Shown here: positions 26,698-32,130 of the stretch, piece after piece
How positions within the stretch are numbered: the stretch's first letter is position 1
Layout: each line of letters starts with the position of its first letter
From: a bacterium
Lineage (GTDB): Bacteria; Bacteroidota; Bacteroidia; B-17B0; Aurantibacillaceae
Assembly (NCBI GenBank): GCA_029945625.1
Contig: JAQSCW010000054.1
Location: 14,083 to 69,224 of the forward strand
Direction: 5' to 3'
DNA: 55,142 bases
Notes under the pieces: model-generated
Told to the model about the DNA's origin: nothing
The model's database searches: none
Seen by the model: the letters and a program-made list of their open reading frames with translations, nothing else
Program-made: the position numbers and the translations under genes

Positions 26698-26919
26698 TCA
26701 CGCCCCGTGATCCCCCACAAATTCATAATCAACATTTTTCTTGCCTACCCAACTAAATTGCAACCAGTAATGTAGAGTTATTCGGGAAGATTAGCGACCA
26801 ATGGTGTAATATTTCATAAATTTGGTAGAGGAACGGATTTTCTGATTCCACACTTAAATGACGAGGCACCCAACCATTTTGGCTTTAAGGCTGTAATGGC
26901 TTGAGGGCACAACCTATTT

Positions 26920-27489
26920 ATGACTATTCAGCCGGAACTGATATCTTCCTGTATTAAGGGTGAGCGAAAGGCTGAGTACGAACTTTATAAGATCACCTAT
27001 AGTTATTTAATGAGTATTTGTATCAGATATACACGAAACGCCGATAAAGCAAAGGAGGTTCAAAATATGGGGTTCCTTAAAATCCTCACCAACCTCAACA
27101 AATATGACGCCAATGCCCCTTTTAAACCCTGGATCAGAAGGGTAATGATTAACACCCTCATCAACGAATATAAGAAAGAGAAAATTCATTATGGAAATAT
27201 CATGTATGTGGAGGACTACTATGAAACCGAACAGTATTCGGCCCTAAATGACGCCATCACCAAAATAAATGCAGATCAGATTTACGAGTTCATCGCCAAA
27301 CTGCCTCCGGCCAGCCAACAGGTATTTAACCTGTATTTTGTTGATGGCTACAAACACAAAGAAATCGCTGAACTATTGGGCATCAGCGAGGGTACATCCA
27401 AATGGCACCTCAACGCTGCACGAGAAAAACTCAAAGGAATGATCTTAGGTTATGATCAAAAAGTTAAAACTCCATTCTATGAAAAGTGA
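26920..27489 (+). CDS. ECF-type RNA polymerase sigma factor
   Basis: A 189-residue protein with sigma-70 region 2 at about 10-80 (AYELYKITYSYLMSIC-like start, YTRNADKAKEVQNMGFLKI, FKPWIRRVMINTLINEYKK) and region 4 at about 122-175 (LPPASQQVFNLYFVDGYKHK, EIAELLGISEGTSKWHLNAAREKL). It directs RNA polymerase to envelope or stress genes when released from an anti-sigma factor. The downstream gene starts inside its last codons, so the two are translationally coupled and form a sigma/anti-sigma pair. The 222-bp gap upstream contains a TAAATTTG (26816-26823), a possible -7 element, but no clear -33. Confidence 0.93.
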   Translation: MTIQPELISSCIKGERKAEYELYKITYSYLMSICIRYTRNADKAKEVQNMGFLKILTNLNKYDANAPFKPWIRRVMINTLINEYKKEKIHYGNIMYVEDYYETEQYSALNDAITKINADQIYEFIAKLPPASQQVFNLYFVDGYKHKEIAELLGISEGTSKWHLNAAREKLKGMILGYDQKVKTPFYEK

Positions 27490-28960
27490 AGAGCAATTTA
27501 AGGAGTCGTTGAACGAATTGCTGGAATCGAAAACATTTTCGTTTGAGGAAAGCAACTGGACTGAAGCACGACAGGTTATCGATGCTTCCAGAAAAAGAAA
27601 AAAGCGAGCTATTCTCCTTTTTTTCTCGGGGTTGCTGTTCCTTTCGATTGGAGTGGTCAGCTATTTTATTTTTCAACCTACAAGAATTCGAGTACAGGCA
27701 AGCCCTACCATGTCTGAGGGGAATTTGTCGTCTACTAACGCAACGCCTTCCGTTATCGAAAATACTGAGGTTATTAGCGGCAGCGGAAAAAACAAATCAC
27801 CTGAAACCGGGGTTGAAGAAGCAACTTCAGAACCTATTTCTACCGGCCGCATGGAAGTTACATTGAAGAAAATGACCCCTACTTCAAACGGGGTTAATCA
27901 TGAACCCCCACAAACACCCGGCAACACTACAAAATTTGTAGCGAATACCCCAAACCCCGTAATGGGAAATCAGGGCACGAAGGTCCTTTCTTCGGCCCCT
28001 AACAGTCCTGTGATTGTCGCGCCTCCAGCCTCACTAATTCCTCCCTCTGGAACGGAAAAACCAGCGGAAGAAATCAACATGAGCCCTCAAGTTGCAGCTA
28101 GTGTACCAATTACTCGCGAATCTGAAAAATCCTTGGGTGCAATTGAATCTACAGTATCCATCACTCCAACAATTCCCGGAACATTGATGGCTATGGAACC
28201 ACTTACGGATAATTCGGTAGTCTTTAACAAAACATCTGACTCCCTTGCAAAACGCTCAGAAGAAACGAATCCGGCTGCTACCAATTCCATCCCCAGTTCC
28301 GCAGTAGCTAAGCCCGACACAGACTATGTTCGTGGAAAAAAACCCACCCTGCTGGTGGAAGCGGGAGTAAGTTATTTGTTAGGTTGGAAAACATCTGAAC
28401 ATAAGGAGGCTTCAGGATTAAATCCGGTGCTGGGAATCAATTATCTTACGTCCATAAGTCCTCTGTTATCGCTCGGCTTTGGGATCCAATATTCTTCAGT
28501 TGGACAACTTACCTATAATTCCTATACTTCGAAAGTGAGCAAATTAAATTTCGGTGAAGAAAGCGACGTCACCGTGTATACCCCCACCACCCTGCATTAC
28601 CTTATTGTGCCCATGCGGTTGCTTTATAAGCTGGATCAAAAAAACAGTATCGGACTTGGTTGTAACATTGGCTACCTTTTAACCGTGAGCGGCACAATTG
28701 AAAAATACAGCGAAACCATACAAGGTCGTTCAGAAATTCAATCCTCCAAGTCAATTGGTTATTCTCAGGGGTTTAAGCCTTTTGACGCTCAATTAGCCGC
28801 ATTTTACCAAAGGAAACTGTACAAGAATTATTATGGAAAAGTTGAGTTCTTTTATGGTATAAATTCTGTAAAAGACGCCACTCTATTTCAATCAAGCTCC
28901 GCAAGCCGCAATGTAGGTTTCAAATTCACCTTGGTTTATGATATTTTTAAAAATTATTAA
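27479..28960 (+). CDS. Dual membrane-spanning anti-sigma-like protein (inner-membrane helix plus outer-membrane barrel)
   Basis: From ATG 27479 the product has 493 residues. A short cytoplasmic segment (about 1-43, with FSFEESNWTEARQVIDAS and then RKRKKR) precedes one membrane helix (about 44-66). A low-complexity Pro/Ser/Thr/Asn linker of about 220 residues follows (67-288). The C-terminal 205 residues show beta-barrel strands (LLVEAGVSYLLG, LLSLGFGIQYSSVG, NSIGLGCNIGYLLTV, AQLAAFYQRKL, NVGFKFTLVYDIF). One chain could therefore link sigma binding in the cytoplasm to the outer membrane, as described for Dma proteins of Bacteroides. I prefer 27479 over ATG 27452 because it gives the short overlap with the sigma stop and a normal cytoplasmic N-terminus. 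Confidence 0.8.
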   Translation: MKSEEQFKESLNELLESKTFSFEESNWTEARQVIDASRKRKKRAILLFFSGLLFLSIGVVSYFIFQPTRIRVQASPTMSEGNLSSTNATPSVIENTEVISGSGKNKSPETGVEEATSEPISTGRMEVTLKKMTPTSNGVNHEPPQTPGNTTKFVANTPNPVMGNQGTKVLSSAPNSPVIVAPPASLIPPSGTEKPAEEINMSPQVAASVPITRESEKSLGAIESTVSITPTIPGTLMAMEPLTDNSVVFNKTSDSLAKRSEETNPAATNSIPSSAVAKPDTDYVRGKKPTLLVEAGVSYLLGWKTSEHKEASGLNPVLGINYLTSISPLLSLGFGIQYSSVGQLTYNSYTSKVSKLNFGEESDVTVYTPTTLHYLIVPMRLLYKLDQKNSIGLGCNIGYLLTVSGTIEKYSETIQGRSEIQSSKSIGYSQGFKPFDAQLAAFYQRKLYKNYYGKVEFFYGINSVKDATLFQSSSASRNVGFKFTLVYDIFKNY

Positions 28961-30082
28961 ATGAAACTCTTACGCATATATGTCCTTTTGTTTTTTGTAG
29001 GCCTGGGGCTTTCCTGCGCCAAGAAAAAATATCCCGAGTCCGTGGTCTTGAATCATGCCATTTATTATACTTCGTTTAATGTAAACGGCGTACAAAATGT
29101 GTTTCAAGCCGGCGTTAATAATTATTATATCTACTCAGACATTGTGCAGGACTCAAACCTTGTGTATAATTTTATGGCTACTTTTCGGAAGGTAGATTGC
29201 CAAACCTGTCCGCTTGCTCTTTCCATACAAATAAATGATTATAAGACCTCTGCACTTAATGCACCAGTTACTACAGACTCCTCCCTGATGATCAAACCTT
29301 ACGTTTATTTGCCTCAAAATGCGAGTCCGGGCTATTCAGTAAATTTCACCTCATCTTATACCCGTAATGATCCCGGGGCCACTTACTTTTGGAGTTTTGG
29401 TGATGGGCAGACATCTAATGTTAAAGATCCTGTGCACAACTATAACACGGCAGGCACTTATCAGGTATGCCTTAGTATCAAAGGTTCAAATTTCTGTGCA
29501 AGCAGCATGTGTACAAAAATCAGAGTAAGTTCCTCGGGGTTCAACACGTCCATTTCAACTTTCAATTTTACAGGTAACACCATGACTTTTAGTCATTCTA
29601 CCATAGGAGGATTTGCCCCCTATAACTTTTTGTGGAATTTTGGTGACGGACAAACTTCCATTGCTCAAAACCCTTCGCACAATTACCTCATTCAAGGGGC
29701 CTACCCTGTGTCGCTTCGAATCATTGACAGCCACGGTGATACTGCCATTGCAAATTACAATGCGGTTACCAAAACCGATCTTTCGTCTTGTGCAGCTAAT
29801 ATAGGCGCTTCCGTAATTTCACTTTTGCCTGGTTCACAATTCGAACATTCAAAAATTAAAATCAGTTTTACGGATGAAAACGGAGTTGTTTTTCAGTCAA
29901 ATGCAATTGCCCAGCCATCTGGCTCTGTGTTCGAGATTCTTTCCGTTGAGCCGGGTGATAGAAATGAAAAAGGTGAACTCACTAAAAAGTTGCATGTAAA
30001 ATTTAACTGCAAACTTGGAAACGGGAGCAAAATAAAAACAATTGACGGTGGTGATGCCGTTATATGCGTGGCATATAAATAA
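28961..30082 (+). CDS. Lipoprotein with two PKD domains
   Basis: A 373-residue protein starting one base after the anti-sigma stop. The signal ends in a lipobox with C19 (GLGLSCAKKK). About 100 N-terminal residues of unknown type include a CQTC. Two PKD domains follow (YFWSFGDGQTSNVKDPVHNY and FLWNFGDGQTSIAQNPSHNY). The last 100 residues form another beta-rich region. There is no type IX sorting domain, so it is probably held in the outer membrane by its lipid. Its place directly behind the anti-sigma gene suggests it takes part in sensing or is an output of the circuit. PKD domains bind proteins or polysaccharides. Confidence 0.82.
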   Translation: MKLLRIYVLLFFVGLGLSCAKKKYPESVVLNHAIYYTSFNVNGVQNVFQAGVNNYYIYSDIVQDSNLVYNFMATFRKVDCQTCPLALSIQINDYKTSALNAPVTTDSSLMIKPYVYLPQNASPGYSVNFTSSYTRNDPGATYFWSFGDGQTSNVKDPVHNYNTAGTYQVCLSIKGSNFCASSMCTKIRVSSSGFNTSISTFNFTGNTMTFSHSTIGGFAPYNFLWNFGDGQTSIAQNPSHNYLIQGAYPVSLRIIDSHGDTAIANYNAVTKTDLSSCAANIGASVISLLPGSQFEHSKIKISFTDENGVVFQSNAIAQPSGSVFEILSVEPGDRNEKGELTKKLHVKFNCKLGNGSKIKTIDGGDAVICVAYK

Positions 30083-30114: not shown

Positions 30115-32034
30115 ATGAAAACTAACGTTAGGATCAGCATCTACCTTTGTTTATTTATGATCATGCTTTTGCCGGCGGCTAAAACACAAATTTGTCAGGC
30201 CAAATTTTCGTACACTCTTGGTCCCGTGGGACAAGTTAATTTTCTGAGCACTTCTACAGGAACAACCGGCACCACTTCGTATACATGGAATTTTAGCACA
30301 CCAAATCCTCCGCCGGTGAGTGGAGTTGGAACGGTTGCTGTTTTTCAAAATGTAACTTTTACGGCCGCTGGAACATACACCGTTGCGCTGGGCATCAGCA
30401 ATGCTTCGCTGGGATGCTCTTCCTCCACCACGCAGTTGGTTATTGTTACTCCTTCATGTTCCATAAACTTTTCTACCTCGCCCGCTGCGTCTTCAGTACT
30501 TTGCAGCGGCAGCGCAACGGCGAGTGCTCTTGGATTTTGTGGACCCGTTACTTATAGTTGGTTCCCCTCCGGCACCGGTGCCGCTCAATATTCATTGTGC
30601 ACCGGTAACCATACGGTGTTCGTATCAGGTACTACCAGTACAGGACTTTGCTGCCCAACCACCTCGGCAGTAGTTACTGTACCCTTATTCAGCTGCGCCT
30701 TAAACGCCGGCTTCACACAAACTATTTCCCCGTCGAGCGGGATCGTTAACTTTGCGAGTACCACCAGTGGCACCGCCTCTTCATCCACCTATACCTGGAA
30801 TTATGGCGATGCTTCCGCGAACGGAGCAGGAGTTACATCCACACATACCTACAGCACTAGTGGCACCTATTCTGTAAAACTAATTGTAAATAATAATTCT
30901 TTTCCTTCCTGCACCGACACCATCATTCAGCCCATCAGTGTAAACGTGGCCACATGCAATCTGGTGGCAAATTTTGTTTACAGTGTTGCGGCCAGCACTT
31001 CTATGTACTATAAAAATACATGCACCGGCACGCTTAGCACCAGCAGTTATAGCTGGAACTTCGGAGACGGCTCAACTGCTTTTGGGCCCTCTACTACCCA
31101 TTCTTATTCCATCCCGGGCACTTATACTGTCACCCTCAACGCTACAAACAATGCAACTCCTTTCTGTACTTCTGCAAAGTCACTCGCTGTTCAGGTGCCC
31201 TCGGTAATCTGTAACATTAGTTCTGCATTTAACCATACCGTAGGTTTGAATGGCGTAGTAACATTCAGTAGTAATTATTCGGGAACCCAGGCCAATCATT
31301 TTTGGAATTTCGGGGATGGCTATTCCGCTATAATTCCAGCGCCCACTCATACATACACAAATGCGGGCACGCATTACGTAAAATTGACAGTAACTGATAC
31401 CGCCTATTATTTTTGCAAAGACAGCGTTATCCAATCCATCAATATTACGGGCGTGCCTTGCGTGGCCAATTCTGTTTTTACCTTGGTGCCTACCGGGACA
31501 CCAAAATTCTGGAATGCCATTCCAAATTATCCCTATAATATAAGCACGGCTGTGTGGAGCTGGGGAGACGGTTCTACCAGCAACGGACTTTATACATCAC
31601 ATGTGTATTCGGTTTCGGGCACCTATACCATTTGTTTGAGCACTACTGTTTCATGCGGAGCTAGTTCGTCGTACTGTTTCCCTTATGCCATTTCAAAACC
31701 GGCGGGCGGTGGCAGCGGCTCCGATGTGTACAGCATTAATGTAGTAGCCCCTGCTCTGAGCGTTAATATTCAACAATTCGCGAATGAGGAATTGGAGTTC
31801 AATATATTTCCAAATCCGAGTAGTGGACTATTCACGTTAAAACTAAATAGAAATGAGGGATCAGCTTGCACAGTAACTATCTACGACCTATGCGGTAAAA
31901 GCGAATTTCATTCTGTATTTTTGGGCGAGACAGAGCAGAAAATAGAGGGTGTCGATATGCAAAACGGCTTGCATTTTATACAAGTGATACAGGGAAATAA
32001 ATCAGCTACCAAGAAATTACTGATAATTAAATAA
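30115..32034 (+). CDS. Secreted multi-PKD protein with type IX sorting domain
   Basis: A 639-residue protein with a signal peptide (about 1-24). About six repeats of 80-90 residues follow, each opening with a cysteine then an NAxF-type strand. The clearest carry the PKD core (SSYSWNFGDGSTAFGPSTTH, NHFWNFGDGYSAI, AVWSWGDGSTSNGL). The second repeat is divergent and resembles SprB-like repeats (CSGSATASALGFCGPVTYSW). The C-terminus begins FNIFPNPSSG and ends KKLLIIK, a type IX sorting domain. It is expected on the cell surface, likely adhesive. It follows the PKD lipoprotein by 32 bp and is probably part of the same transcript. Confidence 0.85.
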   Translation: MKTNVRISIYLCLFMIMLLPAAKTQICQAKFSYTLGPVGQVNFLSTSTGTTGTTSYTWNFSTPNPPPVSGVGTVAVFQNVTFTAAGTYTVALGISNASLGCSSSTTQLVIVTPSCSINFSTSPAASSVLCSGSATASALGFCGPVTYSWFPSGTGAAQYSLCTGNHTVFVSGTTSTGLCCPTTSAVVTVPLFSCALNAGFTQTISPSSGIVNFASTTSGTASSSTYTWNYGDASANGAGVTSTHTYSTSGTYSVKLIVNNNSFPSCTDTIIQPISVNVATCNLVANFVYSVAASTSMYYKNTCTGTLSTSSYSWNFGDGSTAFGPSTTHSYSIPGTYTVTLNATNNATPFCTSAKSLAVQVPSVICNISSAFNHTVGLNGVVTFSSNYSGTQANHFWNFGDGYSAIIPAPTHTYTNAGTHYVKLTVTDTAYYFCKDSVIQSINITGVPCVANSVFTLVPTGTPKFWNAIPNYPYNISTAVWSWGDGSTSNGLYTSHVYSVSGTYTICLSTTVSCGASSSYCFPYAISKPAGGGSGSDVYSINVVAPALSVNIQQFANEELEFNIFPNPSSGLFTLKLNRNEGSACTVTIYDLCGKSEFHSVFLGETEQKIEGVDMQNGLHFIQVIQGNKSATKKLLIIK

Positions 32035-32130
32035 CGATCTTCCCGGCAATAAACATATATCTTAACTGTTAAAATCGGGTCGAATGCAGGAACAACCCAA
32101 CCATTACTGAATTTGAATGTATAGTATAGC

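Follow-up and report, generated by a model that had tools for sequence, protein, structure and literature searches.

How might a single protein convey the state of the outer membrane to a sigma factor in the cytoplasm? This question is raised by a locus on contig C54 of a Bacteroidota genome of 4.1 Mb in 55 contigs, within a stretch of 55,142 nucleotides (nt) that we call the window. There, a gene for an extracytoplasmic function (ECF) sigma factor overlaps a gene for a 493-residue protein laid out like the dual membrane-spanning anti-sigma (Dma) proteins, and genes for a lipoprotein with PKD domains and for surface proteins with a sorting tail of the type IX secretion system (T9SS) follow. 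We favor the reading, at a probability of about three in four, that the locus encodes an autoregulated Dma-type trans-envelope anti-sigma switch controlling T9SS-delivered surface proteins. The part concerning the fold and the regulon is likely; any particular trigger at the outer membrane is a guess that we hold only tentatively.

The two reading frames are those of the initial annotation of this DNA, and they overlap by 11 nt if the anti-sigma gene starts at position 27479. This start is backed by the alignment of relatives; a longer open reading frame from 27452 is also open. No Pfam or NCBIfam model matched the 493-residue protein above the cut-off, including the curated anti-sigma models (zinc-binding, RseA and others) and the FecR family. 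The protein was modeled with AlphaFold2 on an alignment of 11 rows, and the mean predicted local distance difference test (pLDDT) score was 55.6, a low value caused by a disordered tether. Two elements expected from the initial annotation, a single membrane helix and a Pro/Ser/Thr-rich linker of about 220 residues, were recovered. The helix spans residues 43 to 64 by both hydropathy and the model, and the linker has 221 residues (65 to 285) with a pLDDT below 50 and a Pro/Ser/Thr fraction of 0.37 over residues 66 to 285. The cytoplasmic segment had also been described as basic, which did not hold: with 10 Lys/Arg versus 9 Asp/Glu, residues 1 to 43 are near neutral overall, and only the cap RKRKKR beside the membrane is basic.

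The C-terminal domain, which had been suspected to be a barrel, was indeed predicted to be one of eight strands. The model contains ten strand elements between residues 290 and 488, which may be read as eight barrel strands. When the barrel model was searched with Foldseek, OmpA was matched with an E value of 1.4e-7 and a probability of 1, together with Ail, NspA, OmpW and OmpX. In VIA-align, the Z score was 16.5 for NspA, with a root-mean-square deviation of 2.8 over 154 residues, and 15.2 for OmpA (1bxw). An even number of strands puts both ends of a barrel on the periplasmic side, as required by the tether. Calculated per residue, the span of the tether would be about 80 nm at full extension and about 13 nm when randomly coiled. 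The same architecture was found in 32 relatives with 17 to 33% identity, and the tether was short in none of the 60 cassette proteins described below (133 to 352 residues, median 201). Therefore, the architecture is not a product of chance. A sequence search of the PDB returned two matches to the membrane helix and linker, which we took as meaningless.

Next, the kinship of the pair was examined. As described in the Dma2 paper, such a protein binds the sigma factor with its N-terminal domain and continues through a membrane helix and a long disordered tether to a C-terminal barrel, with an ECF21 sigma factor encoded next to it (PMC13088901); the initial annotation had recognized this order in the window. 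A search for DUF4943, which matched in 7 of 295 genomes, gave two loci with the Dma2 operon order (L039 and L040); their Dma2 orthologues were assigned by gene order against the published description, not by comparison with BT_1558 itself. A query from one of them had matches in 61 of the 101 genomes of family f33, which we infer to be the Bacteroidaceae. From 30 f33 loci, 27 Dma-type proteins were retained, with L158 dropped as near-identical to L159 and with L171 and L177 containing no Dma-type frame. The barrel profile of the window's family aligned with the 27 proteins at an hhalign probability (P) of 98 (E 1.3e-13) and with the Dma2 pair alone at P 95 (E 1.7e-8). For the N-terminal profile against the Dma N termini, local alignment gave P 77 (E 2e-5), and the Trp of this module is kept in all 60 rows (33 of the window's family and 27 of Dma type). 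The cleanest test was that of the sigma factor. In five f33 genomes, where a search with the window sigma factor gave between 9 and 18 matches per genome at E 0.001, its eight best matches were exactly the sigma genes beside the Dma1-like and Dma2 loci. Taken together, the barrel profile, the N-terminal match and the sigma best matches make the window pair, at the level of sequence comparison, a Dma-type pair by homology and not by layout alone. Among named records, the nearest anti-sigma genes came from uncultured Bacteroidia metagenome assemblies, such as UBA2475. The 33-row profile had matches in 232 of 395 genomes, a count that was set aside as a family census because many of the weak matches cover only the N terminus and linker.

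The gene unit extends to the lipoprotein. We collected 60 sigma/anti-sigma pairs from the window's genus and 34 other genera, with L050 excluded as lying at the same place as L094, and with L142 and L145, which have no labeled sigma gene, kept outside the set. A lipoprotein homologue of about 370 residues was third in 54 of the 60 cassettes. Over these 54, the distance correlation was 0.83 between sigma factor and barrel and 0.82 between barrel and lipoprotein, or 0.51 once the sigma distance was removed. Such correlations of sequence distances show joint inheritance, and contact is not proven by them. The lipoprotein model (AlphaFold2, pLDDT 79.5) has strands almost throughout; the whole model matched PKD and PKD-rich proteins in Foldseek, and the protein gave no match to DUF4943. 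A phylum-wide search with a lipoprotein profile (135 of 296 genomes) was rejected, the matches listed being PKD-only except in the window's own genome, where the two full-length matches were the two cassette copies. The second of these cassettes (C2:322488-323984; L002 / L057) has the same gene order and an anti-sigma protein 27% identical to that of the window. It has a CGTA-type promoter (see below), no T9SS-tailed neighbor was seen beside it, and it is probably a second, separate circuit.

We then scanned the cassette neighbors, namely the next same-strand genes within 600 nt, over their last 110 residues at E 0.01; a further 20 complete neighbors downstream and 13 upstream were ineligible. 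Among downstream neighbors, 27 of 37 carried the T9SS tail PF18962, and among upstream neighbors, 15 of 46; of the control genes, taken from other places in these loci, 3 of 115 had it (116 before one row, an anti-sigma C terminus, was removed). The downstream enrichment had a Fisher p of 1.7e-18, with loci within one genus being non-independent. When the count was restricted to a single locus from each genus other than the window's, PF18962 was still found in 8/17 downstream (p 1.8e-6) and 13/29 upstream (p 2.5e-8) neighbors. The other T9SS family, CHU_C, matched 9/37 downstream, 2/46 upstream and 7/115 control genes, and dual matching with PF18962 is possible. The T9SS core protein SprA is present in the genome. 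The link to PKD surface proteins suggested by the initial annotation is real, and it is stronger than had been suggested.

To describe the promoter, 28 sigma upstream regions were obtained from 35 loci of the genus (7 had no usable upstream). They share CCCAAC[C/T], with [C/T]GTA 16 nt on. The exact form CCAAC-N17-YGTA is present in 27 of the 28, the exception being L054, with a mean of 0.03 in shuffles, and lies mostly 40 to 56 nt ahead of the sigma start. The motif resembles ECF promoters. TGTA occurs mostly in cassettes near the window's and CGTA mostly in those near the second cassette, so the two groups may possibly have separate promoter specificities. Outside the genus, a CGTG form was enriched (12/41, shuffles at most 7), and the exact genus form was found in 7/41. 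A weaker promoter-like match lies at 26748-26774 in the window, 172 nt ahead of the sigma gene, and L048 and L049 have tandem sites as well. A scan for sigma-70 sites and terminators gave counts close to those of shuffles (17 versus 18.3; 11 versus 9.2), and a literature search by the motif letters was unspecific.

The form ACCCAACC-N15/16-TGTA has three sites in the window's own genome and none in a reversed-pattern control. The first starts at 26868, ahead of the sigma gene, and another, at 32095, precedes the second PKD/T9SS gene. The third is on contig C25 and lies 86 nt ahead of an unlinked gene, whose 760-residue product has DUF7619 together with a T9SS tail. No assembly factor was seen behind any of the three. 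A search of 37 genomes of the genus gave 68 sites, 14 before cassette sigma genes (two being second, tandem sites), 9 before cassette-linked PKD/T9SS genes (called T9SS by the appearance of the tail, not each by a Pfam scan) and 45 elsewhere. Among these 45, 16 lie ahead of a gene and 2 are intergenic without a start. The complete genes behind unlinked intergenic sites carry PF18962 in 7 of 13 cases and CHU_C in 2 of 13. In 20 genus loci sampled before the motif was known, with the T9SS tail called by pattern, a site within 250 nt was present for 14 of 18 sigma genes, for 4 of 21 genes with the tail and for none of 224 other genes. Counted by cassette in loci so sampled, a site precedes the linked T9SS gene in 7 of 16. 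In L258 (3929-4876) and L296, from two genomes, similar lipoproteins of 310 to 315 residues have a site 37 and 52 nt upstream, and these are candidates for a further regulon member. The features of the window are collected in Table 1.

Table 1. Positions of genes, protein segments and predicted promoters in the window
Feature	Position	Strand	Basis or remark
Predicted autoregulatory ECF promoter, ACCCAACC-N16-TGTA	26868..26895	+	Motif in genus; ends 24 nt before sigma ATG
ECF sigma factor, Das-like, 189 aa	26920..27489	+	Pfam Sigma70_r2 and Sigma70_r4_2
Dma-type anti-sigma protein, 493 aa, whole gene	27479..28960	+	Open reading frame, alignment of relatives, AlphaFold2, profile match
Residues 1-43, two-helix N-terminal module, predicted sigma-binding	27479..27607	+	AlphaFold2 helices 4-16 and 24-38; Phe22 and Trp27 invariant in 33 rows
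Residues 43-64, single inner-membrane helix, basic cap RKRKKR on N side	27605..27670	+	Hydropathy, AlphaFold2
Residues 65-285, disordered Pro/Ser/Thr-rich tether, predicted periplasmic	27671..28333	+	pLDDT <50; no invariant columns among relatives
Residues 286-493, predicted 8-stranded outer-membrane beta-barrel	28334..28957	+	AlphaFold2, Foldseek, VIA-align
PKD lipoprotein, 373 aa, predicted partner or sensor subunit	28961..30082	+	2 PKD domains; Cys19 invariant in 11 rows
PKD surface protein with T9SS sorting tail, 639 aa, predicted operon member	30115..32034	+	PF18962 and PKD_4; starts 32 nt past lipoprotein stop
Second predicted promoter, ACCCAACC-N15-TGTA	32095..32121	+	Motif search of genome; about 100 nt before second PKD/T9SS gene
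Second PKD surface protein with T9SS sorting tail, 564 aa	32198..33892	+	PF18962 and PKD_4

The anatomy, kinship, gene unit, promoter and placement established by computation allow a model, from which we infer inhibition of the sigma factor, insertion of the barrel in the outer membrane, a signal and a release step. The N-terminal module would hold the sigma factor at the inner membrane, with the barrel anchored in the outer membrane, the tether spanning the periplasm and the PKD lipoprotein acting as the barrel's partner. A change at the outer membrane, which could be a ligand, too little surface cargo or failed assembly of barrel or lipoprotein, would then release the sigma factor, most likely through proteolysis of the tether, or else because the module lets go. 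Once free, the sigma factor would transcribe its own operon and the T9SS cargo genes. Newly made anti-sigma protein and lipoprotein would shut it down again, so that the circuit would act as a homeostat for surface proteins. More specifically, the barrel and the PKD lipoprotein might gauge the T9SS-delivered PKD protein on the surface while the chain feeds the sigma factor, giving a closed loop from outer membrane to gene for adhesins that is widespread in Bacteroidia; this version is speculative, and we consider it rather unlikely.

Several observations weigh against the proposed switch. The whole case is computational, and the barrel model is based on 11 sequences. The N-terminal match to Dma is modest, with a global alignment at P 29. 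The lipoprotein label is absent from 6 of the 60 cassettes, namely L127, L128 (which ends at the contig end), one of two in L134, L135, L138 and L154. The count of 27 in 28 promoters comes from the very set in which the motif was discovered, and the 68 sites in the genus compare with 40 in the reversed control, a moderate enrichment. Sites were found in 26 of the 37 genomes, leaving 11 without any, and 27 of the 45 sites away from cassettes are intragenic and background-like. The first PKD/T9SS gene of the window has no site of its own and would therefore be read from the operon promoter; read-through would likewise be needed in the 9 of 16 genus cassettes, all sampled before the motif was known, that have no site before the linked T9SS gene.

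The 9 of 16 cassettes without such a site speak for an alternative in which the T9SS link is one of neighborhood only, T9SS genes being abundant in these genomes and the regulated output being just the sigma operon. It is improbable, given how seldom the tail occurs among control genes from these loci and that the site also precedes unlinked T9SS-tailed genes on other contigs. More weight is due to an assembly sensor, although we regard it as unlikely too. Here, a barrel without ligand would be a substrate of the beta-barrel assembly machinery, and failed assembly or lipoprotein transport would leave an unfolded barrel to be degraded in the periplasm, freeing the sigma factor, with T9SS genes as one output of an envelope stress response. 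A chain predicted to need assembly in both membranes would report on assembly. However, the targets predicted for the sigma factor are its own operon and T9SS cargo: across the genus, 7 of the 13 unlinked targets with complete genes have the tail, and no assembly factor was seen behind the three sites in the window's own genome.

The 493-residue protein might also not be an anti-sigma factor at all, but an OmpA-like envelope anchor merely cotranscribed with a sigma gene. Its N-terminal module has no family match above the cut-off, and sigma binding is only predicted. Nevertheless, a sigma gene is adjacent in 60 cassettes, the frames overlap in the window, and sigma factor and barrel are co-inherited. 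The protein is moreover akin to Dma2, whose deletion phenotype is reported to depend on the cognate sigma factor (PMC13088901). An anchor of this kind is thus very unlikely. Less likely still, and with nothing found in its favor, is a FecR-like relay in disguise, with a separate TonB-dependent receptor elsewhere in the genome acting on the tether. The chain has its own predicted barrel, and neither a TonB-dependent receptor nor the FecR family was found among the 83 same-strand cassette neighbors, scanned over their C-terminal 110 residues. Within that scan, the results are consistent with the suggestion in the initial annotation that neither kind of protein serves the circuit.

How does the proposed Dma-type switch compare with known systems? 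In FecIR-type signaling, a surface signal reaches an ECF sigma factor through a single-pass anti-sigma protein, and the outer-membrane sensor is a separate TonB-dependent receptor, whereas the anti-sigma chain of the window has a predicted barrel of its own. RsgI-type anti-sigma proteins of clostridia do combine a cytoplasmic anti-sigma module, a membrane helix, a linker and an outward sensor on one chain, but their hosts are Gram positive and have neither an outer membrane nor a barrel. The closest parallels are Dma2/Das2 (BT_1558/BT_1559) and Dma1/Das1 of Bacteroides thetaiotaomicron, which share the domain order, the adjacent sigma gene, a homologous barrel and the closest sigma relatives. 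Dma1 was reportedly defined in a 2024 PNAS paper. The Dma2/Das2 operon likewise has a third gene, BT_1557, whose product contains DUF4943 and is lipoprotein-like in L039 and L040; in the window this place is taken by the PKD lipoprotein. At locus L041 (2330-5345), a DUF4943-type protein lies beside a different anti-sigma-like gene, with a Cys-containing N terminus and one membrane helix; DUF4943 is therefore not tied exclusively to Dma. The tether is also longer in the window, about 221 residues versus an estimated 125 or so in the Dma2 orthologues, and the promoter motif of the window is absent before all 22 f33 sigma genes. Instead, f33 sigma genes beside Dma-type genes (L157-L163 and others) have TGCAG and ATTT-like letters upstream, or CTGCGTCTAA, and these shared letters are a candidate Das promoter. 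As for output, T9SS surface proteins are predicted for the window, whereas Dma2 is reported to affect vesicles and polysaccharide loci (PMC13088901).

Control of T9SS by ECF sigma factors has precedents. ECF control of the T9SS machinery is known in Porphyromonas gingivalis (PMC7712824) and has been proposed in Flavobacterium psychrophilum (PMC9723704). The SM6 promoters (sigma-ECF) of F. psychrophilum have the same CGT in the -10 element, an ECF sigma/anti-sigma pair among their genes and T9SS targets, but the targets named there are machinery (GldN, PorU), unlike the cargo of the window (PMC9723704). In P. gingivalis, SigP/PorXY likewise places an ECF sigma factor over T9SS genes; it differs in being tied to a two-component system and in acting on T9SS components, and SigP is not among the sigma factors for which that paper, in its available part, gives a possible downstream anti-sigma gene (PMC7712824). 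The initial annotation had expected the Dma family to prove broader than described if the window lay outside Bacteroides. The Dma2 paper already describes the family as "found solely amongst Bacteroidota" (PMC13088901); its occurrence outside Bacteroides is therefore no novelty by itself. What look new are the regular presence of the PKD lipoprotein in third place, the promoter, and a predicted regulon of T9SS cargo for a Dma-type pair. Our literature search, whose reach did not extend to the 2024 PNAS paper on Dma1, found no paper joining a Dma-type anti-sigma protein, a PKD lipoprotein and T9SS cargo, and none on control targets of Dma outside Bacteroides. The Dma2 paper calls for the Dma signal to be found (PMC13088901). 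For this purpose the locus offers a conserved candidate partner in the PKD lipoprotein, a testable promoter sequence and a small predicted set of T9SS targets. If the reading is true, one-chain signaling from the outer membrane would be tied to the system by which Bacteroidota secrete adhesins and gliding proteins, and control of T9SS cargo would be distinct from the SigP-type control of T9SS machinery.

Variants of the N-terminal module were also seen. By eye, the module is tandemly doubled in the anti-sigma-like proteins of L016 (1501-3054, minus strand) and L105 (3793-4818, minus strand), which suggests a self-contained binding unit. At L102 (3422-5783), the sigma gene is followed by a gene for a 243-residue protein that has the N-terminal module and the membrane helix yet lacks the length for a barrel, and then by one for a protein that we take to be PorP/SprF-like; this arrangement is possibly a two-chain version of the switch. 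Short frames akin to it (243 to 256 residues) were matched in other genomes of genus g21. In another lineage, family f9, related N termini occur on frames of about 560 to 770 residues (L097, L098, L099, L100 and L101).

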